Assembly (NCBI GenBank): GCA_033220425.1
Contig: CM065650.1
Coordinates: forward strand, 1,736,001-1,800,000
Direction: 5' to 3'
Length of the DNA: 64,000 nucleotides
Source: Lepraria neglecta
Lineage: Eukaryota > Ascomycota > Lecanoromycetes > Lecanorales > Stereocaulaceae
Of the stretch, positions 2,903 through 19,139 are shown one piece after another (position 1 is the first letter of the stretch; every line of letters begins with the position of its first letter). The translations under genes were made by a program, and so were the position numbers. The notes under the pieces are model-generated. The model saw only the letters and a list, made by a program, of their open reading frames with translations. It was not told the origin of the DNA and searched no databases.

Positions 2903-3639
2903 ATGGCTTTAGGAAACCAAGGGCATTCTGCTTTCGCAACCTTCCTGATCATCTGCCGTAAGCCTTTCACTCGTGACTTTCATGAGCTCTGGTATGTTCG
3001 CCAGGTACTGAAACTAACGTGGGAACAGCGACGTCCTTCTTTCTCGGCATCATCTTCTCCCTCTTTCCTTACGACTACCCACTCCTATGGACCTCAGATC
3101 CCTGCCCTCCAGAGGCTTTCGTCATCCTCGAAAACCACCTACGATTCTTGCACAACTCCCCTCTAATAATTACACGCATCCTTCATACAGTCATCGGAAC
3201 AGGCTTGTTGGGCTTCTTCATAAAACTCTATCGACCCTCAGAATCCAATAAGCTCTTCGATGGCGCGAGCTTGATGCTATACGTGGTCGGTATCATAATA
3301 TACGTAGCGAACATTGTGAAAGGTATGAGGGTCATTGCCAGTGGTAAATATGACGTGGAACTTGTTCAAGGGGAATCGACTCTAAGTACCACGACGGTGC
3401 TGTCAGGGGAGGAGGTGCCACTCGGGAGGGACGACAGTCTAAGGGTCATGGCGGCCAGTAACACGATTCTTGCGCTTGTGCTGATGGGAGTATTGGTACT
3501 ACAGGCTGGGCAGTGGTATGCTGAGAGGAAAGAGGGGCAGGAGGTGGAGAAATACATGGAAGAGAAAGCCGCAAAGGGAGAAAGTAAGAGTGAGGGCGCC
3601 AAGCATAGGAGTCCTTCGGGTTCCAAGAAGAAGAATTAG
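2903..3639 (+). CDS. SHR3: ER membrane chaperone Shr3 for amino-acid permeases
   Basis: Two exons, 2903-2957 and 3029-3639 (71-base intron with GTAAGC donor, CTAAC branch and ACAG acceptor), give 221 residues. Residues about 10-30 form the first membrane helix, ending in the signature TSFFLGIIFSLFPYDYP, typical of the Shr3 family. Three further hydrophobic segments follow (GTGLLGFFIKLY, LMLYVVGIIIYVANIV and NTILALVLMGVLVLQAGQWY), then a cytosolic lysine-rich tail ending KKKN, suitable for ER retrieval and COPII contact. Shr3 prevents aggregation of amino-acid permeases in the ER and helps their packaging. The start was chosen because the short first exon completes the first helix. Confidence 0.92.
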
Positions 3640-4061: not shown

Positions 4062-5577
4062 TTACCATCGGATTCCTTCATAGATGTTGCAATCTTGCCG
4101 AGCAAGATCTTTGACAGAGGAGCTCGCAGAGTCCTTCGATCCTTTGACGTACTCTGACTGCTTGTTGGAGCTGTTACCGCGAGTAGACGAGAGCGAGAAC
4201 CTGCTTCGAATCCCCCTAAGGACGCTGTCTATGGAGAAGCGGGTGAAGACTGGGCCCATCAACGGGAGGCAGGCGCCTACCACACCCAACGACGACTCAA
4301 CCATAGGCCAGTATATAGTCGGCGTCAATAGATCTGTTTCCAGTCGTGAGCAAGAAGCCAAGCTTCATTGGTAGTGGAGATGTACATACAGGTCAGATCC
4401 ACGGCATCTGGAGAGGTGTCTTTAGTCCACCGAAGTATTAGCTTTCGTCGGCACCTCTGTGAATAGAAGACAAAGAAGCACCACATACTATTGGCAATTC
4501 GATAAAACACGGCCAGCTTTGCGACTCCTGCGCCAACGGTCCTTTAAATCGCGATGTAAGCACGACTGACATCCCATGATCCTTATACTTGAGACTTACA
4601 GAGCCCCTAGGAGGAACATAAACATCACAGCAAGTTTGTGCTTGACCGACATCTGAAGAGCCCAAATCTAACGGGAATTAGCAGCTGAGCTCGGGGCGCA
4701 TGAGGGGTGTCATACGCAAGGAACCGGCAACGAAAGTATCATCACTATTGGTCTTGTCAGACGAATACCCCCATACAGCAAGAGCTTCCTCAGCAGCTGG
4801 ACTGCGCACCATCAGTGAATACATCCGACCATGCCTGTGCCAAGTACATCTTAGTCGTCTCGATGCAGCCTGTGCTGGCCCAACCCGTCCAGTCCACCGT
4901 GATTGGTAAGCATTGAAGCAGGTTGGCGAAAAAGAACGAGATGGTCCACACAATCACAATGCCGATCATGGTCCAGACGGTGATGGAGAAGACTTTGCCC
5001 ACAAATATTCTGAGACTCTGATCAGCGCTTCTGCCTTGGCATTTAGGGTGAAGCAACTCACCTTTTATAGAGAAAAAGCACCGCCAGTTTCGTGAAACCG
5101 AAAGTCAATGTCTGCATCAATTGCGAGGCAAATGTGACCTAGCAGACGGTTAGCATCCAGCTTCACCACCCGGTGGATAGGGGGATAACTCACGATAAGG
5201 AAGACTTCGGCACGGTGGTCGAAAATTGGCATGCCTGTTGAATCTATTGGCGTGTGTCGTCCCAGATTTCCGATTGCAGCTCCTAGATTATGGTCATCAG
5301 AGACGTCTCGTGATGAAGTATCACAAGGGCACAAACCAACGATCATGCAAATCCCCGTTCCAACAGTGAAGAGCTAATTGAATTTTCACTTTAGTGGCTG
5401 CGTCGAGAGCAGAATGTGAAGACATCTTACCAACGCGGGCAGAATCATGTAACCGTCCCAAGTTAACAGGCCAACTTTCTTAGTGTGCATGGAATAGAAA
5501 CGCAGCATGACCGCCACGATCGCCAACAGCATCAAGACTGCGGCCAGCACGTACATCTTCTCTGGAGATTCGGCCAT
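4062..5577 (-). CDS. Rhodopsin-domain integral membrane protein (fungal SAT-type family)
   Basis: Ten exons join to a 333-residue protein: 5431-5577, 5337-5373, 5194-5282, 5062-5138, 4810-5009, 4716-4744, 4600-4667, 4489-4541, 4390-4419 and 4062-4333. The joined product has about seven membrane segments and the hallmarks of the fungal rhodopsin-domain family (PF20684): a first helix followed by RFYSMHTKKVGLLTWDGYM, then ASQLMQTLTFGFTKLAVLFLY, then FFANLLQCLPITVDWTG, then MILSLPVPCIWALQM, and finally LTPTIYWPMVESSLGVVGAC. The C-terminal tail is Ser-rich and cytosolic. Many introns are near-minimal, and several carry in-frame stops, so the gene only makes sense when spliced. Members of this family are abundant, lineage-specific proteins of mostly unknown role, some in secondary-metabolite clusters. 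It is not an Ste2 receptor. Confidence 0.82.
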
Positions 5578-6850
5578 GGCTGCTGGGTATATCGACAGAA
5601 AATGGTGAAATTCGAAGATGGTCAAAACAGCCTCTGGCTTCGCACCTTCAGCGTACTGCCCTTGTATATGTATGCGAACGCTCAGGATCTACGAAGACGG
5701 CCAATTTCACAAGCTAAACCGGTATTTCATGGACTACTTTGCCGCAAGGCAGTGCATGAAGATTGTGAAGAGAGACTTGAAAAATCAGGCGTGCGATAGT
5801 CTAGAGTCACCCATATTGCAGGCCAGCTGCAGAGAACACTGCTCCATCCACTTCTGGCATAAGACTTGATGATTGATATACTGGCTAATGTCGTGCCGTC
5901 AAACGTTGATTCGACCAAGCCTCAGGTTCTTAGCCCGCCTTGGACGCCTAATGCTTATTTTGAAGGCTGTGTTCACGAAGCGCTAGTCATGAGGCTGAAG
6001 TCTTCAAGCCGCTGTTTCAGAACTTCAACCCTCTCTGTCAGTCACTACTTGCAGATCTGCTTCCATTGCGTATCGAGGTATTGCGAAAACCGCAATGACG
6101 CGATCGATCATTGGCCCTCTTTCGTAGCTTTTGAGTACTCTTTGAATGCCGTTCACGATCCTACATGATATCAACCATTAAAGAACCCGAGACCGGATTT
6201 CGTTCATTCTGCGAGTAGGGCATATCTGCATCCTGCTGCGACTGGAAATGGAAATTACTGAGGCGCTCTGCGATGATTACGGAATTTTTGCGCCGTGTAG
6301 ATTCAGGCGTGCCATCACTTTGTTTTGAAACAACGCTTTCGGGAACGGCGCGTACGGCGAACACTGCCTTCTCTAGTGAACAACCTTCCACTTTCATCCA
6401 AAGAGGTCATGCCTTATGGCCTGAAGAATGCTGTGCCTTCCATCTATATTGAAGGATCTCAGCTTTAAAAACTTTTGGGCTGAGTTCCTGGTTTCAGGCC
6501 CGCAAATTATACAGTACTTCTATGGCTCACGGAGAATTTGGAATTCATGCTTATCATCCTCGTATATCTTCCTTTACGGTGAGCCGGAGACTATCTGACA
6601 GCTCAGCCAGCGGCACAGTAAGATTTGCATTGTGCCTCTACAGGCCTACCATTCCCGCGATCTAGATGTCGCAAGCTGAGCATGTCCTTGAGCCATCCTA
6701 CAATCTCCTGATCTCTTTAAAGATGGGCATGGCCGACCCACATCCCAGACAATCGAGTGAACTTCGCAACAGCATCTTCACCCTCGATTCCTCGCCAACG
6801 CTTTAACAACCCCCGTACGGTCTACCTCCATCGCCTCCAACACCGCAAGT
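5578..6850. other. 1.27-kb stretch with no supported gene
   Basis: Short frames occur on both strands but none has a plausible start, splice pattern and family resemblance together. The left end must include the promoter of the rhodopsin-domain gene and the right end that of the peptide precursor at 6851. No repeat or transposon end was found. Confidence 0.45.
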
Positions 6851-7273
6851 ATGCGCTCCAACATGTATCTCTTGTCCGCCCTTCTCTGGACCCTGACAGT
6901 AACTGCCCTGCCGACCCCTCAAGGTAAGTCATAGTAACACCAAGCCACTGGATATTCACAGCGCTGACGAGATGGGATCGTAGTGGACTTAATTTCTGAT
7001 GTGGTGGACACTGCTCCTGCGGACCCCACCGTCTTCGACCCCATAATCGACGACCTAGGTAACCGACCTCATAAGAGCATGTGGATTTGCGACGGCCATA
7101 TCTGGAAACGACAAATGTCATCCGATGGACTGGTATCCGATCCCGCTGCTGACATGCCCGATACTGTTCTCGAAACCCTCGGTCTACATGAGGGCGCGAC
7201 TCCTGAGAGTAGCATGTGGATTTGCGGAGGCCATGTCTGCAAACGAGATACTGCTGGAGAGAAGGCTGCTTGA
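6851..7273 (+). CDS. Small secreted precursor with two Kex2-flanked Trp-Cys peptides
   Basis: Exons 6851-6923 and 6984-7273 (60-base intron, GTAAGT donor, TAG acceptor) encode 120 residues. Residues 1 to about 20 form a clear signal peptide ending TALP. The rest is acidic and contains two copies of a short peptide, SMWICDGHIWKR (about residues 56-67) and SMWICGGHVCKR (about 101-112), each ending in the Lys-Arg site used by Kex2. The plan (signal peptide, acidic spacers, repeated cores each followed by KR) is that of alpha-factor-type pheromone precursors and of fungal ribosomal peptide (dikaritin-type) precursors. The core has Trp, Cys, Gly-His and a terminal Cys, loosely recalling the WC...GQ.C pattern of ascomycete alpha pheromones. 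No UstYa-like oxidase is seen nearby. Function is inferred only. Confidence 0.7.
7076..7111 (+). repeat. Peptide repeat copy 1 in the precursor
   Basis: 36-base unit encoding SMWICDGHIWKR. It matches copy 2 at 32 of 36 positions by eye. It differs in having Asp for the first Gly and Trp in place of the second Cys. Confidence 0.9.
7211..7246 (+). repeat. Peptide repeat copy 2 in the precursor
   Basis: 36-base unit encoding SMWICGGHVCKR, 135 bases after copy 1. It keeps two cysteines that could form a disulphide, which copy 1 cannot. Confidence 0.9.
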
Positions 7274-7819
7274 GATGCTGAGGGCTTTAATCAGGCGGGC
7301 TTTTGTATATATTTCATCATGGCTATATGGGTGGCCTGTGCTAGTCGGGGAACAGTGGCGTTGAAGGGATTTCCTAACGTCTTCTCCCAGCCTATTAGCT
7401 CGCTATCTGTTCTCGTGAAGTTGCATACAGTGTAATCAGCCATTCTGAAGAAGAGGTCTATATACCTATTACTTGGTCATCAAATTTATGAAGATGCTAG
7501 AAGATTGTCTAGCCGCTGCGTACTATCTATTCTCAGCTGATAACGAGCTACACAACATGTACTCAACTAGTCACATGTCATTTGTCCTCTACATAGCCAC
7601 ATGCTCGAAAGACCGCAATGACTGGCTTCGTCTACAATCACAATCTCACAAACAGGGTCATTCAAGTACGTCTCATATTGTCAGCTGACCTCAGTCTAAT
7701 CTCCCACTGCAACGCCTATATTCGCACTCCACTGCGCCATAACCCGAATACTTAGCGTGGGTGGGAATATGTGCATCCTTCCGTCCCCAACTTCTCCTCC
7801 AGAAAACTTATCCAAAGCC
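7274..7819. other. Spacer, no supported gene
   Basis: 546 bases between the peptide precursor and the Myb-like gene. It should hold a 3' end and a promoter. A frame opening at 7473 ends at 7688 but has no recognisable feature. No repeat seen. Confidence 0.4.
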
Positions 7820-8110
7820 ATGGCCGCCCTCACCCCATCGCACACCACAGCAACCTCTCACTCATCAACCTCGCCGGGTCAATCATCCGATAAACCACCA
7901 AACCCCATCCTCAACCATTCGCCAACCCCATGGACCACGGACAAGGACAAAAAGCTTTTGAAATGCGTAGCAGACGAGAAGAGCTTCGAAGATCTCGCTG
8001 CGGAACTGGGAAACCGCAGTGTGGACGATTGTTTGAAGCACTGGGATGAGCATCTTAGGTCTACGGTTGATAGCCTTGTTGCGTGGAATTTCCGGGGGTT
8101 GGGTTGTTGA
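7820..8110 (+). CDS. Small Myb/SANT-like domain protein
   Basis: A 96-residue protein if translation starts at the ATG at 7820, which sits in a strong GCCATGGCC context; an in-frame ATG at 7769 would add 17 residues. The first 45 residues are Ser/Thr/Pro-rich and look disordered. Residues about 45-85 read PWTTDKDKKLLKCVADEKSF and continue with DLAAELGNRSVDDCLKHWDE, the tryptophan spacing and three-helix pattern of a single Myb/SANT repeat. Stand-alone one-repeat Myb proteins of this size are common and largely uncharacterised in filamentous fungi; DNA binding is an inference. A broken relative lies 0.5 kb downstream. Confidence 0.6.
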   Translation: MAALTPSHTTATSHSSTSPGQSSDKPPNPILNHSPTPWTTDKDKKLLKCVADEKSFEDLAAELGNRSVDDCLKHWDEHLRSTVDSLVAWNFRGLGC

Positions 8111-8635
8111 GTTTGGAACCTATTTTCCCCCCCGGTTCACGGCTCTTGATGAATGTCCTTTGAGATTAGACTCACTCCTAGGCGGCCCTTCGTTCTTTGT
8201 GTTCTATGTTCTGCTCTTGGGACTTATCTGCTAGCAAGAAGTCTGCTTTAAGACAGCCTATTATGCCCTGTCCCTTGCTTCTGGGACTTGGATTTTGGCT
8301 CCAGCTCGGTTTTATGAAGAGTAATGCTGACTTCGAAATGTTCAGGTGGTCGAAGGGCAACGAGATAGGAGCTTCGACTCTGTTGAATTGTTAGCATTCG
8401 TCAAAGTTCTGTCAATCAATTCACTATATGACCACATGTTCCAGAGATGCCGACAAGCTTATATCGATTGGATTGTTTGGGGCCGTATTCTCCGAGGCAA
8501 CATAGTCGAACTCTACCTTGTTGCAATGGGTTGACCTTTGTTTGATCTCCCGATTCCACCTTTGAACACTTTCTTTCCCCCAAACCTCTTCGAGATTATC
8601 CCAAAGGCGCCCTGCCTCAGTCATCATTGGTCAAT
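8111..8635. other. Spacer, no supported gene
   Basis: 525 bases between the Myb-like gene and its broken relative. Overlapping frames on both strands, none convincing. Confidence 0.4.
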
Positions 8636-8971
8636 ATGAACTGCAACTCCTCAAACACCATGAATCTTCAACTAGCCATGACATCCAACCTTGGATTCTA
8701 GATAATAGACATTCACCCAGCCCAAATAGCGCAAATTTGGTTGTATCTCGAGACCGTACAGCAAGAAGGTCCACCTTTGACATCACGCTCATGGATGCTT
8801 GTAGAGGACCAGATACTCTACTTCGTAAGGGCACTTAATGGGCATAGCGCGGATGAGATCGCTGCGTACCTTCATTGCGGTGCAGAGGAATACTAGGAGT
8901 GTTGGATTGCTCAACTTGATAATATGCCTTGTGAACTTGTTGAGTGGCTTGAATCGTTACCGGAGCGGTGA
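8636..8971 (+). pseudogene. Broken Myb/SANT-like gene
   Basis: One reading frame from the ATG at 8636 to the TGA at 8969-8971 shows Myb-like character but is interrupted by TAG at 8699-8701 and TAG at 8894-8896. Between the two stops it reads IDIHPAQIAQIWLYLETV, then SWMLVEDQILYFVRALNG and SADEIAAYLHCGAEEY; after the second stop the same frame continues ECWIAQLDNMPCELVEWL. The Trp, Asp-x-x-hydrophobic and second Trp spacing parallels the intact gene at 7820. No GT donor lies between 8636 and the first stop, so splicing does not obviously remove it. Best read as a host pseudogene; a short gene with unseen introns is the alternative. Confidence 0.45.
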
Positions 8972-9279
8972 GGCTTTCCCATGAGTATGTTGTAATAGAA
9001 AGGGAGGTTGTCTTTGCCAAAATCCAGTGTCCGAATCTACCTTGATTGAATATGTTGGTAGGGACACCAATACCACAGCAGGTATCATAACATTAATAAT
9101 ACAGCGTAGAAATCCTCCCGTCAGTCTTTTCTGGAAATCGCCATCATCATCATCATTGAATTCGTATTTGGATGTTCTCCACTCAAACAGCCACCGGCCC
9201 AAAAACGACAATCCAAGAAAGAACGCATTGTGATATCCAACTTCCTCAAGCCATAAAATCAACATCTTTCTATGACCAA
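8972..9279. other. Spacer, no supported gene
   Basis: 308 bases containing the 3' region of the SnoaL-like gene. It includes a short CAT/ATC-rich run near 9140. Nothing else noted. Confidence 0.4.
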
Positions 9280-9811
9280 TCAAAACTCCTTCGCCACCTC
9301 AGCTTTTCCGTTGGCCTGCCCAGCTTGCTGCTTCTCCATCGCAGCCTTAAGCTTCGGGAAGAAGTCACGTTCCATTACCTGATATCTGATTAACTCACAG
9401 TCCACATCAAATGAATAAGCGGAACAAAAGACAAACCGTGTCCGAGAACTCCTTTGACCGCCTAATCTTCGTGCCCGACTCATCGAAATCTAGCAGCCAC
9501 ATATACTCATTAACGTATTCCCCCGCCATAGTATCCGCTCTCGCATTCAACGACAAACAGATGCGGCGAGCGTCTCTGTCTTCTACCAAGTCGTTGATGG
9601 TCAAGTAGAAATTATGAAAAATGGCTCGAAGGTTTATGAGGGAGTTGAAATATGTGGTGTTGTTTTGATCCTTAAGTCCCATCGACAGTGGTAGAAATTG
9701 GCGGACACAGTCTGGGCTCCGGTGCGAGATGACAGCTTCGACGTCCATTCTGTTAAATGCTGCAACGACCGCTTCAGCGGTTTTCCTTTGTTGGGAGATG
9801 GACATGGTCAT
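9280..9811 (-). CDS. SnoaL/NTF2-like small protein
   Basis: Exons 9437-9811 and 9280-9378 join across a 58-base intron (GTTTGT donor, CAG acceptor) to 157 residues. The start at 9811 has A at -3; ATGs at 9805 and 9853 are alternatives. The protein opens with a helix (QQRKTAEAVVAAFNRMD), then HRSPDCVRQFLP, then DARRICLSLNARADT and GEYVNEYMWLLDFDESG, an alternating helix and curved-sheet pattern typical of the NTF2-like fold (SnoaL type) in fungi. The tail is FFPKLKAAMEKQQ. Fungal members often sit in or near secondary-metabolism clusters, some acting as isomerases or cyclases and others with no known activity. No biosynthetic core enzyme is visible here, so no reaction is proposed. Confidence 0.75.
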
Positions 9812-10699
9812 TGTGGTTGTCTTTCTGCCTGGCAAATTTGATGTAAGTCTCACATTCTGCCACCCGCTTCTAAGGGAAGGTACAAGTGCTTACAAGCTTT
9901 CAGCAGGGAGGGTTTTGACAGCCAGAGCAAGGCAGGACAAGTCACTTGTGTGTCGTCTTTCTGGTAGCGAAGTCCAGTAGACCGGTACACTGACGTAAAG
10001 CTTCTTTTTTTAATTTCTTCAAAAAAAAAAAAGGCTTATCGCGTATGCGAAGCTTCCCTTGAAATCTTCCATCCATATCTCTCAGACGGCTGAGGTCCAT
10101 CGAGGTCCAGATGGTAGCTTATGCCTATCGAGGAAGGATTTGCGCCGGGCTGGTACCGGCTGACACATTACAGTGCTCTAGCGGGAACCTGGAGGCGTGA
10201 CCTCCCCCAAGAGTGGTTAGAAGCTGGGCGTGCGGGGGTCACTCTTAACCACTTAGGGCCGCCATTCGGGTGGCGGAAGCCCAATGGAAGCCCACCTTTC
10301 CCCATTGGATTTCCTCGAATGTTTAGTGTTCCCTGCTCTTTCCGAACAGGGCCCGATCTGCGATCTTGACTTCCCTAAATTGTCATGGAAAAACGACCTG
10401 TGCAGATCATCCATGTGCTGTCAAATAATGTAGTGTTAGGCCGACACATATCTACCAGTATCATAAAAAGTAATGACCTGCAAATGCTCTTGAGGGGGAT
10501 TCGCTGGTGCGCAGGCGGCACTGTTGCCGTTTCACTGGTCTACAACTTCCAGAGACCTTTCCTTTATCTGGAAGGCATTGCGGTCTAGCTGCTTAAGCAT
10601 CAAGGTTCTAGAGGAGAATCAGAGCTGTGGATCAACGCTAACAATCTCTTGCTAGCAAAGAGCTCTCATTCGATCAAAGGACTCGCCGATTCAAGACCG
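9812..10699. other. 0.9-kb stretch with no supported gene
   Basis: Includes a poly-A run near 10021-10032. An open frame at 10121-10369 on the plus strand lacks any recognisable feature. Promoter of the SnoaL-like gene presumably lies at the left end. Confidence 0.4.
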
Positions 10700-11374
10700 T
10701 CACGAAATCGAAGTAGCTCCGAAAACCGAATCCCCCTCCATGAAAATTTTGAACGTCCCTTCAGAAGCCTCATGTGTATAATTGGTTCCCACGCCAAAAT
10801 CAAATGTCACTTCCTTGCCACCCCAGCTCAGCGCCAAGACCATATACTGCGCCAGCGCCATCACCACAGTCAACACACTCGGCGTGGTTTTGTGGCAATC
10901 TAGCAATAAGCGAATGACTCCGTATCCAGAAAGACCGTTGTCTGTCTCACACGGATCGTGCCACGCCGTGGCGACCCATGACTGCAATTGCTCGAAAAGA
11001 ACTAGACTGAGTGTCAGGGTTTCTTGATCATTGAAGTCGCGCCCTGCGGCTGTGAAATTAAGCCACTCGGGGAATTTCGCCGTGTCCATGATACTTGGTA
11101 GCAGGAAGGGCATTGCTGGCCAGGAACCTTTGGCGCTGGTGGGCGCGCTGTGTCAGCTTTTCTTGGATTTTTTTGTATGTTGAGGATTGAGCGCTTACTT
11201 TTTTGAATTCGTACTCGCGTTCAACTGATTGACAATCGACAACAGCTCCGTCAAATTAGATGATGCAGGAACCAGTTCAGACATATTCAGTGGTGGCGCC
11301 TGAGCGCTCACGAGGTAAGTGGTGCCCCATAAGAAAAACGACGCGAAAAAAAAGGCTGCTGCTGAAAGCTTCAT
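10700..11374 (-). CDS. Secreted protein of unknown function
   Basis: Exons 11199-11374 and 10700-11135 join across a 63-base intron (GTAAGC donor, CAG acceptor) to 203 residues. The first 24 residues form a strong signal peptide (MKLSAAAFFFASFFLWG...VSA). The mature part has several N-glycosylation sequons (for example NMS, NLT, NAS, NFT, NYT) and few cysteines. A central hydrophobic stretch, TTPSVLTVVMALAQYMVLAL, could be a membrane segment or a buried helix. I do not recognise the family. It is one of three secreted or membrane products in the 4-12 kb accessory stretch. Candidate roles such as a cell-wall or effector-like protein would be guesses. Confidence 0.6.
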
Positions 11375-11953
11375 GGTTACTCTTACTACGCAGAACGTTT
11401 ACCAAGAAGAAGGAAAAAAGGGGAATGCGCGACTCTTAAAGGCCATGCAGTCAGCTTGAATGGGAGGCTATGATAGCGGCAATACATGTTTGAACATTTC
11501 TATTTGTTCAACTATCCATACATGCGAAAGCCGCAACGCGTTTCGTCCATCCTACTCGCACACATACCTTCATCAAGCGCTCTACTGCCTCCCGCCTCAC
11601 TTGCGCGGTGGCCTGGGCGGCGCCCTCATCTTCTGGGTGGCGTATTTCGTGGAGACCCAAGAGATGGTGTTCGATCGCATATACAGTTATCTGAATCAAC
11701 GGTCAGCCTAGTGTTTTACATATCGCCGATGGCTTTGTGTCGGAATTATAGTGACAGGGGTTTCACCTTGTTCAAGCTTTTTGATGGAACCGATGGCTTG
11801 ATTCGACACTCTCGATATTCAGGAGCGCGATGCTGCAAGCCCCAAACACAAATCCAATCCCAAAATTCCTTATCTCTCGCGGCTGGTGCGGTCATTTTCT
11901 TGAATTAAAGACGTCCTGATGTCTGTGAAGGACGGCGATCCAAAGCCATGGAG
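11375..11953. other. Spacer, no supported gene
   Basis: 579 bases upstream of the secreted-protein gene. A 140-codon plus-strand frame at 11486-11908 starts at ATG but its composition looks random and it overlaps frames in other phases. Left unannotated. Confidence 0.35.
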
Positions 11954-12271
11954 CTAGACACCAAGCTGTTTCAATCTACCCTTCCAATTTGCCTGAAAGG
12001 CCGCAGGAACAAGTCCCAATGAAAGAACAGGGAAATGGACTGATTCATTGACCATTTCATTCTGAATCATCTCCGTCTGTTTACTCCGCCATGCTCCCCA
12101 GTACACATCTAATACTTCCACCGCCTGCCCTCCTTGCCAGGTGGTCCTCACAAACCCCCCAAACCAAAACCACGCCATCCAACGGATCCCCCAGCCCACG
12201 CCAACGCAATGAGACCCTCCAACAGCCAGTGAGGTAGTCCATACTCCCAACTTGTGACGAAAGCGAAACAT
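11954..12271 (-). CDS. Hypothetical Trp-rich small protein
   Basis: An ATG-started frame of 105 codons with unusually many tryptophans (eight) and a hydrophobic Gly/Trp-rich first half reading VGVGWGIRWMAWFWFGGFV, which might be a membrane segment. The second half is polar and ends KGRLKQLGV. No family recognised and no splice needed. Overlapping frames exist on the same strand, so this may be fortuitous. Confidence 0.3.
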   Translation of the reverse strand: MFRFRHKLGVWTTSLAVGGSHCVGVGWGIRWMAWFWFGGFVRTTWQGGQAVEVLDVYWGAWRSKQTEMIQNEMVNESVHFPVLSLGLVPAAFQANWKGRLKQLGV

Positions 12272-12385
12272 CTCGCTTAGTCATGTCCTACTAGCATTTA
12301 GCCTCTCGCGCTGACGTAGGTAAATACTCCCCAAAACCAGCGCAACCTCGTCACAAAAATTATACATTGGATATAAAAACCAATC

Positions 12386-13195
12386 ATGAACACAACACCC
12401 GCTGAGTACACAATAAACGTACAAAACCACTCCGGCCAACACCAGACCTACTTTCTCTACCCCGCCACCCCCCTCCTAACCCCCTCGCCAGAAAATGGCG
12501 GAGGAAAACTCCACCGCTGTATTCAAATCGCAGCGCCAAGGGTGCCTTCGCCAAAGGGCTCAGTCATGTTCTCGCTGAATATGAAACCTTATGCCATTAC
12601 CGGCACGTCTTCGAAGCCTCTTGGCCCGGGGGGTAAGGTCGATGTTAGGGATTCTAGACGGGTGAGGATTGCTACTATGAATGCTTTGGGGGATGTGGTG
12701 GAGACTAGTAGGGAGAGTAATGCGTGGGGGGCTGGGTTTGGTGAGTTGAGGAGTGGGTGCGAGACGCTGGGGAGTTTCTCGATCAAGGCGGATGGTGAGC
12801 TGCAAGAGTCTGATGATTCAAAAGGTGAGTTGTTTTTTCGTATGTACATCTGCTATACTTGATACGAATTCTGCAGGGCTCTGGTCCTCTACTCTACCCA
12901 GATCAGCTAAAGAACGCCTTACCTAGAAATCATATTCATAGGTCTCGGTGCTCCTCACCCCGAGTATCGCAACGCAGTTGTCCCAGTGGCTTGCTTCACC
13001 GCACCGCCTGGTGTGAACACCGTCATCACTCCTCTAGCTAAGTATTACGTCGGTTTCGGGGAGCAGAAAACGGGCCAGATCTTCGATCCGTCAGCGGTAG
13101 AGAACCCGTGCGAAGTGGATTTTATGAGTCGGGCTGCTAGGAGGGCGTGGGTTGTGCATAATGAAGATGGGGAGTGGGAGGTGCATTATTCGTAG
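12386..13195 (+). CDS. Conserved-looking protein of unknown function
   Basis: Exons 12386-12824 and 12942-13195 join across a 117-base intron (GTGAGT donor, CATAG acceptor) to 230 residues. No signal peptide or membrane helix. The opening EYTINVQNHSGQHQTYFLY suggests beta strands of a jelly-roll-like or lectin-like fold. The second exon contains ACFTAPPGVNTVITPLAKYY and a Phe/Tyr-rich segment, ending in DGEWEVHYS. Codon use and the clean splice support a genuine gene. I do not recognise a named family and propose no function. Confidence 0.6.
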
Positions 13196-13753
13196 CTTCC
13201 CGATCCAATTTGCTCAAACGGTCGCAAGGAAGGAACGGTCCCCAAGAAAGGACTAAGTAGATCACCTTTCGCTGCTACATCAGCTCCCACTCCTTTCCAA
13301 CTCTATCGTGCCCAAACTCAAGTCAACCCTACCCCCTTCCCAAATTCCCCGGAAATTAGCCTTGCAGTTTCGCAAAAATGGCCATCCTACGACCCTCCAG
13401 CACCGCGCCAACGCAACTGTGAAAATGACTTAATCGCCTTAGCAGCAGGGTTCCTCCCCCTAGCCGCAGCCACCATTGGCATGACCTACGCCTTCTCCAA
13501 TAAATCACTCACAAGATTAATAACAAGTCAGAGAGTCATCGGCTGGTCGGGGACAATAGCCGGCGTCTACATCATGGCTAGCACGTGATATCGGGGGAAT
13601 GAACTAGATCGAGAGAGAAGGATGAGATTCGAGCTGGGGAGAAGGGACAGGAAAGGAGGTGGCAGCGCTGGGGGCCTAAGCAACAAGGAGGGAGAATGGC
13701 TTGATGTCGTGGATCCTTTTGGCTTGAGAGATCCTACCGCAAGGTTTCTTTAG
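13196..13753 (+). pseudogene. Degenerate two-helix membrane protein gene, copy 1
   Basis: The frame is open from 13196 to a TGA at 13586-13588 and then again to TAG at 13751-13753, but has no ATG before the one inside the hydrophobic region. It reads CENDLIALAAGFLPLAAATI and then SQRVIGWSGTIAGVYIMAS, two likely helices. After the stop come DRERRMRFELGRRDRKGG and DPFGLRDPTARFL. The order Cys-Glu, two helices, DRER, DPF is repeated in the next feature. Start loss plus an internal stop suggests decay; unusual splicing cannot be excluded. Confidence 0.35.
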
Positions 13754-14031
13754 ATGCTGGGGGAGGAGGGTTGTACTTTGTTGGGGTGGTGCTACTTCAG
13801 GGATCCTAAGGCTGCTAAGGATGAATGTTTTGGGAACTGGCCATGAGGTTAGGCATTGAGTAAGGGTTGCAGACCGCAGAAGACCGGCGTTATCAGGGAT
13901 AGAGTCCAGTCAAGTCAACCAAATTCGTAGTTCCCATGGGATGAAATGCAATGCAACTCGCTTAAATAACTGCAAAAACCGGCTCGAAACCCAAGACATC
14001 GGGATTAGAAGTCTTTTCGGTATCTTTACAA

Positions 14032-14485
14032 ATGCTTCTGTGCCAGCACCCTCCAGCCAACATCACCAACGACATCTCCAGCCACCTGCATCACATAACG
14101 CCACCATGCGAAGAAATCACCATCGGCTTCCGCGAATTATGTTTCATATCCGTCTCATACGCCTTGACAACCGCGGTCTTCCACGCCGTATTCTGCACTC
14201 CCACCCCTTTCATGCTTCTGAGAGTGCTCGGCTTATTAGCAACGGTGGCTGAGATCTATATCATTGGTCTCAACATGGCGGGAAGGATGAAGGGTGGATC
14301 GAGAGCGTAAGATTAAACTGGGGGAGGTCGGTGTCAGGAAGTCGAAGGATGATTTTGCCTCAGCTGAAGTTGGCGTCTCGGATCCTTTCTCTCTTGCAGA
14401 CACCGGTACTCGGAACTTGTACATGATCGCTGGAGGTATGGTGTACGGCATTGGTGTGATTACAATGCTCGTGGTGCTCGAGTGA
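14032..14485 (+). pseudogene. Degenerate two-helix membrane protein gene, copy 2
   Basis: An ATG at 14032 opens a 92-codon frame with PPCEEITIGF and two hydrophobic segments (FISVSYALTTAVFHAVF and LRVLGLLATVAEIYIIGL), closing at 14310. The neighbouring frame from about 14294 continues DRERKIKLGEVGVRKS, then VSDPFSLADTGTRNLY and a further hydrophobic end, closing at 14485. The shared DRER and DPF blocks indicate kinship with the feature at 13196. Either the frame is shifted near 14300, or a very short intron (GTAAGA...CAG, about 31 bases) joins the two parts. Unknown function. Confidence 0.35.
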
Positions 14486-14685: not shown

Positions 14686-17600
14686 TCAGACCTCAGTCTC
14701 AATGCCCGGATCCCGCTCTTGATGCCCAAAACGACCTATAACATGGTCTCTCCCATGCTCTACTTTCGTCTTCAGATATTTCCCTGTCCTTGCAACTTTC
14801 CACTGCATCAGTCCCCTATGTCTCCGATGTAGTTGCTCCGAATGAACCTTGTAGTCCTTGATCTGCTCCATAGGGCCGCCACCCTTGTGATCATCCTCGT
14901 CGCTGCTTCCGTCTTTATCACCAGGCTTGAGCTTGTGGAGAAGACTATTAGCAGCATGCGTGGGTCCTTCCTCGTCCGAGCTATCAGAGTCACTTGAGTC
15001 GGAATCATCGTCACCGGCCATGGCGGTGCGGACTTCTTGGTTATCATTGGCGGTGCTGAGGACTTCGAATACGTCCTGCAGATTCGGGCTTTTGCTGGCT
15101 AGTCTGTGATGATAGGCTCCTAGTCCTCTATATAATTTTAAAGGCACCTCGATAGTACCAGCCTTCTCCCCGAGATCGTCCGTAACACAGTTGGACTGAG
15201 CCCGCTTGAGCCTTTTCGAGTCGCCTCTCCAAACGGGTAGGGAGACAGTGCGGGCTTCCTCATCTGGTATGTCCTTGAGCCAGAGCACAGCGAAGGCGGG
15301 CGTCTTATCAAGGCCCAACTGATTCTTGCGGAACTCTATCACAAAGCAGGAGGCGTAGCGCTTGCGGACTGCCACTCGAACAAGCCGATCACGTTTGCCT
15401 GTCCAGCGGCTTTCTCCCGCATTGTCTGATTTCGAAGTGTACATCTTGCCACGATTGACAGTGGTGCGGACCTTGAGCCTTAAACCATTGAGATCTGGGG
15501 AGATGTCTTTGGATGTGATGGGTCCAGTGATTTCTATGGTACCATAGTCCCAACCCAAGAGCTCCTTCGGTAGCTGAATTTGAACAGATCTGAATACCAT
15601 GGATATGCGGACCCTGCCGTAGCCGATGCCTCCAACGAGAGGATAGTTGTCCATTACCTGGGATCGCTTTTTGAAAAGCTTGCCGAGAGGTAGATAGACA
15701 ATCCCCAGGAGAGCGTCATTTTCGTGGATGCGAGCATCCCTGACAGAGACCATTATCTCCGTAGTGTGCCAATCTCTGACCAAACGCTCCGTTCCTGCAT
15801 TGAAGAACGGTTGGGCATTCTTGGGCTTGGTGCGGGTCTTGAAAATCGTCTGATGATTGAGGATGACAGTGCAGTAAGACGAGGGCAGATCACCAGACCC
15901 CGCCTCTCTGTCATCGCCCTCGTCGCCCTCGGCTTGGCTTTTATTGATTTTCTCGAACTCGAGACCTGTGATCTGGTGGATCTGTATTGAAAAAACACCG
16001 GTAGGATACTTATGTAAAGGCGGGGTTGATGTGATCATGGCGTCTAAGGAAAGTGTCAGTGCATGGTAGCAGGAAACTTCAGAGCAACGTACCTTCTCTA
16101 GACTTCAGCATCTGGGCTTTTTGTTGGTCTGTTTCAAAGGACTCATCACGATCTTGAGCTTCACGTAGGCTCTTTCGGGCATCCTCAGATACCTTGTCCT
16201 TCAGCCCCTGGTAGGTTTTGACATCTTCCTCAACCGTTTGTTCTTCCAACTGTTCTGCTTGTATCCTAGTCTTCGGGAAATATCCTACGCTCCAATCCAA
16301 AGTACCCGGCATCTTCTTATCTCCTTCCAGAGCCTGGAAGCCATCGGTGCGATGCCACATGTTACATTTCGATTGAGGATTATGCATCAGCTCTTTAAGA
16401 TCGACCTCGATTCTTCCAAGATCGTCATCGGCAGATGTGCGGTCGGAGTCCCAAAGCTGGACACGCAGCCGCTCCTCGGCGTTCACTTCCTGTGGGCCTA
16501 CCTGAATAAAAGCTGTCTCTTCCCAGACTGGTTGCATGTCCTCGGTGATTACCCTCGTGGACCAGACAGGTTTGCCAAACTTAGCCCAGCCGACAGCGAC
16601 ATAGCCATCGCTGGATCCCTTCTTGAGCGGGCCAATCTCCGGATCTCCAGCCTTGAAATCTATGCCTCTCTTGATCGTAACCATAATGACGCCTCGGGTA
16701 GTAGCGTCCTTCTTGAAATCATCTCCGACCAACATGTCTTTTAGATCAAGTGTAAGGCTTTTTGGCGCAACGTACTCTGCGAGAGCTGCATCGATGGAGC
16801 TTTGGACGAAAGACGAGATCAGAGGGAAGTCCATGATATTGAGACCTCTCTTGGTCAATGGCACACAAGAAAGTTCGGCTTTCGGCTGGCCGAGCAGTGT
16901 CAACGTACATAGAGCGAAAAATGGAGGATCAGGACAGAGCTGGAGTCGCATTCGCATTGTCCCGACAATGCCGCGAAGCTCTACCCAAACAGGGAAGCGT
17001 ATCCCTCCTGGCAGATAGAAAGCAAGGAAGAGATGAGCGTTCTTAGACTTGAGCTTGACGCTCTTGCCACTACTGGACGCCCTGTAGGAGAAGCCGACTT
17101 CAACGTTGACGAAGTCTCCTTCCTCAGCCTCCATACCCTCTGCGATGTTCTGCTCTTCACCTTCTTCCTTCTCCTCGTCTTCCTTGTTGTCATCGCCTTG
17201 CTCATCTGCTCTATGCTCTCCCTCGTCATCTGACTTCTCGTCGTCATCAACCTCTCCTTGACCAGGGACAACACGGTCGCTGTCTTTGTTTCCTTTATCA
17301 CTTTTGATTCTGCCGTCCTGAGACACATTCTTTGCCGCAGCGCCTGTTGGCAGCCACCTGACACCTAAGATGCGGATGGCCTCGCTGCCCTGGCCGAGGT
17401 CTTCGACACTAATCATGCGTACGAGCTTGGGCAACGAAGCCTGCATTACGTCCTCCAAGGTGTCCGCCAGACTTGCGAAGAGGTCTGGGTTGATGAGTGG
17501 CCAGATAGAGGAGAGTACGGAGTTTAGCCATTGAGTTGATTCTGGTATTGGCGAATCCACTGTTTCTTGCTCTTGTACTCTGGCTGAATGCCAAAGTTCA

Positions 17601-18598
17601 TCATCCCAAACGCTGTGGATCCTGTTCTTCAACCAGCCTTGTAGGGCCCAAATGATAGCACCTCCCACAGCGGCACAGGGAGTTAGAAGTAATGAGGATG
17701 AGACAAGGATATTCAGCCATGTCCGTGGTGCACCACTGTGATTCTTGATGAGATGACTTCCAAGAAGCAGCAAACTGGTTATAGCGAGAAGGGCTGCCAT
17801 TCCAACCGTGAAAGCAAGACTGTAAATGTTCGCTATTTCCTCTTTCGCAGAATCGAAACTAGGTGGTGGGAACAGTTTCTCCATGGCACTATGGCCTGCC
17901 TGCTGTTCTTTTGACTCACGTTCAAGCTGGCTCTTGCTTTTCGCCTTTGCACTGCCGCCTGTTGCACTTCGGGGTAGTGAGCCTGCGGGAGGTTCATTCT
18001 CCGGGACCGCCTTCATCTCTTTGCTTGTTGTGTCATGGACCATGACTCTTAAATGCGTTACGGGATCCGTCACTTCGCGAGCCGCATGGTCTCTCTTCAT
18101 TTGTTTCATGTTCTTCCTCTTTTGCTTCGGGTCTAGAGTACTGTCAATGCCCTCGAATGTATCCTGGAGCGCGGACTCTCCATCTTCTTTCGACTGCTCA
18201 GAGTCATTCTTGCCTCCTTTACCTGACTTGTCAGTCCTATCTTGGGGCCCTTCCCCATTGCTCCCTCGATGATCGTTACTAGCCTTAGGAGACTGTTCTT
18301 CAGGAGGGTCGACATTGCGGTTTTGACTTCCGTAGGGATTGCTTTCATCTACAGCTGGGTCGTTCGCACCGCTATCGAGATGAAGGTGCCTCTTCGTAGA
18401 GTCTAGTATGCCTTCCTTCTCTTCACCTTTTGGTGCTTCATCCTCTACTTTGTCTGGTACCGTTGCTTCCGAGACGGCCTGCCGTTCCTCCTTGCTTTCT
18501 CGATACTCTTGGATGTTGGGCACCTTGTGCTGGCGGCTGTAAGGTGCAGCATAGTTCCGCTTCGAGGCATTCTCATCGAAATTGTCATGGCTAGCCAT
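14686..18598 (-). CDS. Mug190-like SMP and C2 domain lipid-transfer protein
   Basis: Exons 16093-18598 and 14686-16043 (49-base intron, GTACGT donor, TTAG acceptor) give 1287 residues. The frame extends 30 bases upstream only through a TTG, so the ATG at 18598 is used. Order: charged disordered N-terminus to about residue 250; two membrane helices at about 261-280 and 294-320, a likely ER hairpin; an SMP-type lipid-binding domain from about 356 (WLNSVLSSIWPLINPDL) interrupted by an acidic insert and ending near 600; a C2 domain at about 640-760 (GVIMVTIKRGIDF, DGYVAVGWAKFGKPVWST); a second C2 domain after the splice (GVFSIQIHQITGLEF); and an acidic Ser/Asp run near the end. This matches the Mug190 family of ER contact-site lipid transporters related to tricalbins. 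Role inferred from the family. Confidence 0.85.
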
Positions 18599-19139
18599 AT
18601 TGGGGGCTTCGTAACACCATTGGGCCAACGGTCATTCAAAAGGTCGCCGTGTTTTCGAGGAAATCGTCACAAGAGGAATTGATGAACAATGTAGATGGAG
18701 TCGTGCTGCCAACGGCTCCCTTTTTGTGATTCTAAAGGTACAGGAGATCGTCTCGACGCTTGAAATGGTCGTCAAAGAGAAGGGCAAGACCAGCTGCCAT
18801 AAATAATACGTAGAGGCGAAACCTGATGTAGGCCAGGTCATGGGAATCAAGGATCTGGAGATCAACATGCAGGAGATGATGTATCCCTGTAGCACATCAT
18901 TGTGGGGAAAATACTTCAATACTTAAATATTTTTGCTTCTCTATTGCTCAAGCTCGTCCAAATACTGCGTGGACAGCAGGTGCTTCTATTGATGAGGAGA
19001 GGTTAGAGAGGGGGCATATGCTTGCTCGTCGAATTGGAGTCCCAGCTTCTTCTCCGCATACTCCACCAACACCCCCCTCGGCCGAAGTCTCGGATTTTGA
19101 TATACAAGCTCCATCACAATAGGGGCTTTTTTGACAGCC
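18599..19139. promoter_or_regulatory. Divergent promoter region of Mug190-like gene and DPH4
   Basis: 541 bases between two outward-facing start codons. No convincing coding frame; the small frames at 18632-19169 overlap each other. Contains an AT-rich segment near 18910-18945. Confidence 0.5.

Follow-up and report, generated by a model that had tools for sequence, protein, structure and literature searches.

A predicted secreted precursor with two repeated, KR-terminated cores next to a Pth11-like receptor gene in Lepraria neglecta

What would a short, apparently secreted protein that carries two nearly identical cores, each ending at a Lys-Arg (KR) pair, do for the fungus that encodes it? 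Such a protein is predicted at positions 6851-7273 of the 64-kb stretch of Lepraria neglecta DNA analysed here (called the window below); the open reading frame (ORF), the repeat and the KR sites are read directly from the sequence. Our best explanation, which we hold tentatively and consider quite possible, is that this precursor functions in the manner of ascomycete alpha-pheromone precursors and could be this fungus's own, diverged one. If it is the fungus's alpha-pheromone, the known core sequence space of filamentous ascomycetes is broadened, and surveys based on at least three repeats or on a WC...C consensus overlook real precursors. If it is not a pheromone, then a small secreted peptide with a core of a new kind is encoded beside a receptor from a class for which few ligands are known. 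Under either reading, the peptides are short and easily synthesised and tested.

The predicted gene and its surroundings

The gene model lies on the plus strand. Exon 1 (6851-6923, 73 nt) contains the start codon, which has an A at -3, and a putative signal peptide, MRSNMYLLSALLWTLTVTA, which is followed by LPTPQ after a cleavage point placed by eye. The predicted intron (6924-6983, 60 nt, GTAAGT...GCTGAC...TAG) is required for joining the signal peptide to the frame of the repeat. Exon 2 (6984-7273) then encodes an acidic spacer, core 1, a second acidic spacer, core 2, an 8-residue tail and the stop codon. The predicted spliced product is the 120-residue protein MRSNMYLLSALLWTLTVTALPTPQVDLISDVVDTAPADPTVFDPIIDDLGNRPHKSMWICDGHIWKRQMSSDGLVSDPAADMPDTVLETLGLHEGATPESSMWICGGHVCKRDTAGEKAA. 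An earlier, sequence-only reading of the locus had proposed both this protein and this intron, and the two were reproduced here, with well-formed splice signals and an open frame. The intron pattern occurs 15 times in 128 kb (both strands), while 20 shuffles gave a mean of 17.95 occurrences; thus, the chance of finding it in any given 100-bp stretch is about 1%. This frequency supports the intron, short of proof.

When scored by codon-usage log-odds against the window, the sense frame reaches +5.5 and a longer, overlapping antisense ORF -18.7. The latter, which also has no Pfam match, was rejected as the gene of this locus. The synonymous codon bias of the sense frame, taken alone, is less than 1 SD from that of non-coding frames, and codon bias by itself is too weak to prove that the locus is coding. 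These values bear on the possibility that the gene does not work, being either a pheromone precursor in decay or a repeat-containing ORF that is not transcribed. We consider this improbable. It would fit the low synonymous bias, the fact that the longer ORF at the locus is the antisense one, an intron pattern that occurs no more often in the window than in shuffles, and the nature of the three codon differences between the cores, which are all replacements and leave the two copies differing at one Cys. However, the frame is open, the splice signals are intact, KR is retained in both copies, and the sense codon score is far above the antisense score.

An N-terminal signal peptide is a plausible prediction. 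Under a first rule, which used an arbitrary hydropathy cut-off of 2.0, the N-terminus of the precursor narrowly missed with a value of 1.99. A second test used another hydropathy scale and also asked for a basic n-region and a (-3,-1) cleavage site; by this test, 22 of the 1069 ATG frames, the precursor counted among them, are equally signal-peptide-like.

Searches for relatives of the spliced protein gave no match in Pfam or NCBIfam, and the sole match in the PDB up to E = 10 was a PRP40 fragment at E = 1, which was taken as chance. Searches by tblastn of viral (2 pattern stretches) and prokaryote (18) collections yielded no relative. These collections are silent on fungi, and thus a lack of relatives among viruses, bacteria and archaea provides no evidence of absence in fungi. 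A text search of 5.39 million open papers, a scope that excludes supplementary tables and figures, found none of six spellings of the core. When the precursor was modelled on its own with AlphaFold, confidence was low throughout (mean pLDDT 43.5), which is compatible with a disordered pro-peptide, yet uninformative.

Pfam searches of the ORFs place the precursor between conserved genes. To its left are genes for an M48 peptidase, the mitoribosomal protein mL59 and the SHR3 chaperone (2986-3636); to its right are MUG190-like C2-domain ORFs, a DnaJ/CSL protein and further housekeeping genes. Within the interval of about 11 kb from SHR3 to MUG190, the only family above the Pfam cut-off, with all listed ORFs of at least 100 codons scanned, is Fung_rhodopsin. 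Two of the window's housekeeping ORFs were compared with the PDB: the YTM1 ORF scored 381 bits with the best chain, 311 with the next YTM1 set and 272 with the third (presumably from Chaetomium, budding yeast and fission yeast, respectively), and the mL59 ORF scored 157 bits with 6ywe, which we take to be from Neurospora, and 52 with the next match. The window as a whole reads best as filamentous-ascomycete DNA.

Several other features of the region can be recorded. At the left edge of the window, the plus-strand segment 172-672 encodes part of the M48 metallopeptidase (E 4.5e-9). Directly downstream of the precursor, a plus-strand ORF of 136 codons (7700-8107) gives a marginal match to a Myb/SANT-like domain (23.9 bits, with a cut-off of 24.4; E 4.7e-5). 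The following stretch of about 6 kb between conserved housekeeping genes, 8110-14239, contains no ORF of at least 100 codons that reaches the Pfam cut-off, and is possibly lineage-specific; a weak SnoaL-like match (E 0.1) is found at 9410-9889. On the minus strand, an ORF from 11374 to about 10703 begins MKLSAAAFFFASFFLWGTTYLVSAQ and, by eye, resembles a second small secreted protein; its 10703-11152 part has no Pfam match. The MUG190-like SMP/C2 protein (14689-18631, minus strand) is represented by two ORFs that overlap, 14689-16104 and 16082-18631, and that may belong to a single intron-containing gene. The 64-kb window gave no matches in Rfam and tRNA scans.

The two cores and their processing

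Core 1 with its Kex2 site, SMWICDGHIWKR, occupies 7076-7111 on the plus strand, and core 2 with its site, SMWICGGHVCKR, occupies 7211-7246 on the same strand; the cores begin at residues 56 and 101, respectively. As the sequence-only reading had claimed, these are 12-residue repeats, 135 bp (45 residues) apart, that are identical at 32 of 36 bases. They constitute the sole pair in the window with at least 32/36 identity within 300 bp, for which the binomial expectation is about 2e-8. A repeat finder lengthens the match to 45 nt (7067-7111 and 7202-7246, 82%), adding three codons upstream. Nine of the 12 codons are identical, and the three that differ are all replacements (D/G, I/V, W/C). When the upstream Pro is included, ten shared residues all use the same codon, an outcome with a chance of about 1e-4 under the codon usage of the window. 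The spacers, in contrast, have no mutual similarity (global p 0.41, local p 0.30). Joint duplication of spacers and cores was therefore rejected, with only the three codons before each core extending the repeat. Because the spacers are unrelated while the nine shared residues keep every codon, the copied unit appears to be the core, and the cores are best read as a duplication between unrelated spacers that is recent or has been repeatedly homogenised. A six-frame protein scan for similar 9-mers that precede dibasic sites also found the core pair alone. Its threshold is loose, since 2 of 20 codon-block shuffles also gave a pair; thus, the weight of the repeat claim rests on the DNA match.

The two copies differ in their cysteines. 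It had been proposed that one core lost its second Cys; core 1 does have a single Cys and core 2 has two, but core 2 may instead have gained its second Cys.

The only two dibasic sites of the precursor are the KR pairs at residues 66 and 111, each of which directly follows a core. Inspection of the whole 120-residue protein revealed no Kex2 or Ste13 (XA/XP) site directly before either core. The residues that precede the cores are RPHK and TPES, with a Pro three residues upstream in both, and the first KR is followed by QMSSDGLV, which has no XA/XP run. The earlier description of the peptides as Kex2-flanked is therefore half right, since the KR sites lie only after the cores. Similarly, the pheromone-precursor layout proposed in that reading holds for the secreted-type architecture and for the abutment of the cores on KR, but not for processing sites before the cores, which are absent. 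Processing by Kex2 and Kex1 alone would give acidic products (net -6 and -7) of 46 and 43 residues that both end in a core, and the release of a 10-mer needs an additional cut. The masses calculated for these longer forms are 5108.505 and 4442.947 Da; those of the 10-mers are 1246.526 Da (monoisotopic) for SMWICDGHIW and 1091.435 Da for reduced SMWICGGHVC, whose disulfide form would be lighter by about 2.016.

Under the pheromone reading, the precursor protein would enter the secretory pathway via its signal peptide, Kex2 would cleave after each KR, and Kex1 would then remove the KR to leave peptides ending SMWICDGHIW and SMWICGGHVC. The second of these would be able to form a disulfide and the first would be unable to do so. 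The acidic spacers would act as pro-regions, and the peptides would be sensed by a seven-helix receptor of the partner cell, presumably of the Ste2 type.

The same protein could instead function outside mating, as a two-core, Kex2-processed secreted protein that provides a lineage-specific signal, a surface peptide or an effector-like small protein. We regard this as possible, though doubtful. The products would in that case perhaps be the core-ending peptides of 46 and 43 residues, as predicted for Kex2 alone, rather than 10-mers. A function outside mating is also consistent with a survey in which about 5% of 7878 Kex2-processed repeat proteins, present at a mean of 5.25 per Ascomycota strain, were annotated as mating factors (PMC7329392), and with the lack of a significant likeness between the core and seven published pheromone cores. 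On the other hand, a core with Trp, Cys and Gly that is present twice, each time directly before KR, is by eye closer to alpha-pheromone precursors than to the other conserved motifs listed for Kex2-processed repeat proteins (KEPs), namely DADAATXYV, YVW[G/A], SPPHKT, QKLKVD and EDYXI (PMC6339444).

The adjoining Pth11-like receptor gene

The Fung_rhodopsin gene, which encodes a class XIV (Pth11-like) seven-helix receptor, is a multi-exon gene of the minus strand; its exons, which are placed approximately, start at 5577 and reach at least 4242. It lies head-to-head with the precursor gene, and the two start codons are 1273 bp apart. The approximate exon-joined model matches PF20684 at E 8.4e-34. 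The unspliced ORF 4793-5104 matches alone at 1.3e-13, so the identification is independent of the exon joints; ORF 4065-4364 gives a weak match (0.0072) at the end of the profile. A 2026 review assigns the PF20684 domain to GPCR class XIV, which it describes as strongly expanded, and counts most GPCRs of fungi as orphans (PMC13308352).

This arrangement raises the possibility that the adjoining receptor has the peptides as its ligand, which would make a linked ligand-receptor pair outside Ste2/Ste3. We judge this very unlikely. The start codons do lie only 1.27 kb apart, head to head, and the two other plus-strand ORFs of at least 100 codons that extend into this interval (5467-5799 and 5863-6168) have no Pfam match and negative codon scores. 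Yet the association of receptor and precursor is one of position only, and since class XIV is greatly expanded in Pezizomycotina (PMC13308352), adjacency of a precursor and such a receptor is likely to arise by chance. Hardly credible, too, is the more specific proposal in which a lineage-specific secreted signal has the new core W-I-C-x-G-H-x-[W/C], comes in two forms, one able to form a disulfide and the other with a single Cys, and acts on the Pth11-like neighbour, which would give an orphan receptor class a peptide ligand.

Comparison with dikaritin, KEP and alpha-pheromone precursors

Precursors of dikaritins (ustiloxin/phomopsin-type) likewise have a signal peptide and Kex2-separated cores, and a signal peptide with repeated cores and Kex2 sites is described as common to ustiloxin-type precursors (PMC7329392). 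The locus could on these grounds encode the precursor of a ribosomal peptide that is cyclised as dikaritins are. This reading is disfavoured, and we give it scant probability. Unlike dikaritin precursors, the precursor has no Tyr in its core and no DUF3328 gene was recognised nearby. A scan of 48 ORFs, which are part of those in the window, and of 2 spliced models gave no DUF3328 domain, although intron-split genes could escape it. The HxxHC pattern has 11 six-frame hits, 2 of them interrupted by stops, with no two in one stop-to-stop segment. The lack of a recognised DUF3328 neighbour is shared with alpha-pheromone loci, as nearly all pheromone KEPs are reported to be without a DUF3328 gene (PMC7329392).

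The precursor is KEP-like in being a secreted-type protein with repeated short cores that end at KR. Unlike KEPs, it has only two repeats, and long, dissimilar spacers take the place of a compact array. In two KEP surveys, a KEP must have three or more similar repeats that lie between Kex2 sites (PMC6339444, PMC7329392). Here there are two, and thus the precursor would go unlisted in both surveys. Four or more repeats are found in most of the described KEPs, although some alpha-pheromone precursors have fewer (PMC6339444).

In published alpha-factor precursors, a signal peptide is accompanied by repeats of 9-14 residues that are followed by KR, RR or KK (PMC10569646), and both cores conform to this description. 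Two or more pheromone copies per precursor are reported for most ascomycetes (PMC3464258), and the precursor of Oidiodendron maius is an 89-aa protein with two repeats (PMC10569646). Introns are also described, as a 79-bp intron in the Paracoccidioides pheromone gene (PMC3464258) and as spliced ppgA transcripts in Aspergillus (PMC5307856).

The core itself departs from the alpha-pheromone type. The published consensus is WCXXGXXCW (PMC3068285), but variants exist, such as CKYVGQGCW in Helotiaceae (PMC10569646), PYG[L/M]P[I/V]G in Pleosporales and that of the Trichosporon protein QSWGGCGGRGTPCW (both PMC6339444). Neither WICDGHIW nor WICGGHVC contains the consensus or a GQ/PG turn. When compared with seven published cores (one from a basidiomycete) and judged against its own permutations, core 2 gave p values of 0.07-0.14 and core 1 of 0.38-0.44. 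The suggestion that the core fits no known motif is thus borne out to the extent that it lacks WCXXGXXCW and is no closer to the seven published cores than its permutations are at the 5% level. The precursor's core is W-I-C-x-G-H-x-[W/C] rather than W-C-x-x-G-x-x-C-W; four residues separate the cysteines, and core 1 has a single Cys. Pattern scans for other pheromones in the window gave four WC-type hits (27287, 37912, 25291, 20838), which were judged by eye to be chance and rejected as a canonical pheromone, and no PYG motif in the 64 kb. A predicted beta-turn at C-x-G-H was likewise set aside as pheromone support, since it also appears in 74% and 87% of permutations. Upstream of the precursor, one Ste12-like TGAAACA at -525 and an inverted one at -838 are weak evidence for a pheromone gene.

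A further difference from typical alpha-pheromone precursors is that neither core is preceded by a Ste13 or Kex2 site. Processing sites that are not proximal to the repeats are reported for some alpha-factor precursors, and incomplete or non-adjacent sites are reported among Leotiomycetes (PMC10569646). The atypical alpha-factors of Hymenoscyphus repandus and Erysiphaceae share such non-bilateral processing sites with the precursor but retain GQ, where the precursor has GH (PMC10569646). In Ceratocystidaceae, precursors with KEX-only processing and non-identical repeats are described, in which the central glycine is conserved except in Meredithiella (PMC13037118).

Because two tested defining features of alpha-pheromone precursors are lacking, the precursor is not filed as a member of that class. 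Nevertheless, it shares with PpgA, Ppg1, Ccg-4 and PB-alpha a signal peptide (plausible in this case), a short precursor, few copies and one short intron. Like alpha-pheromones, it would also present a 10-residue core that contains Trp, Cys and a central Gly and is directly followed by a Kex2 site, and in core 2 the second Cys lies directly before KR.
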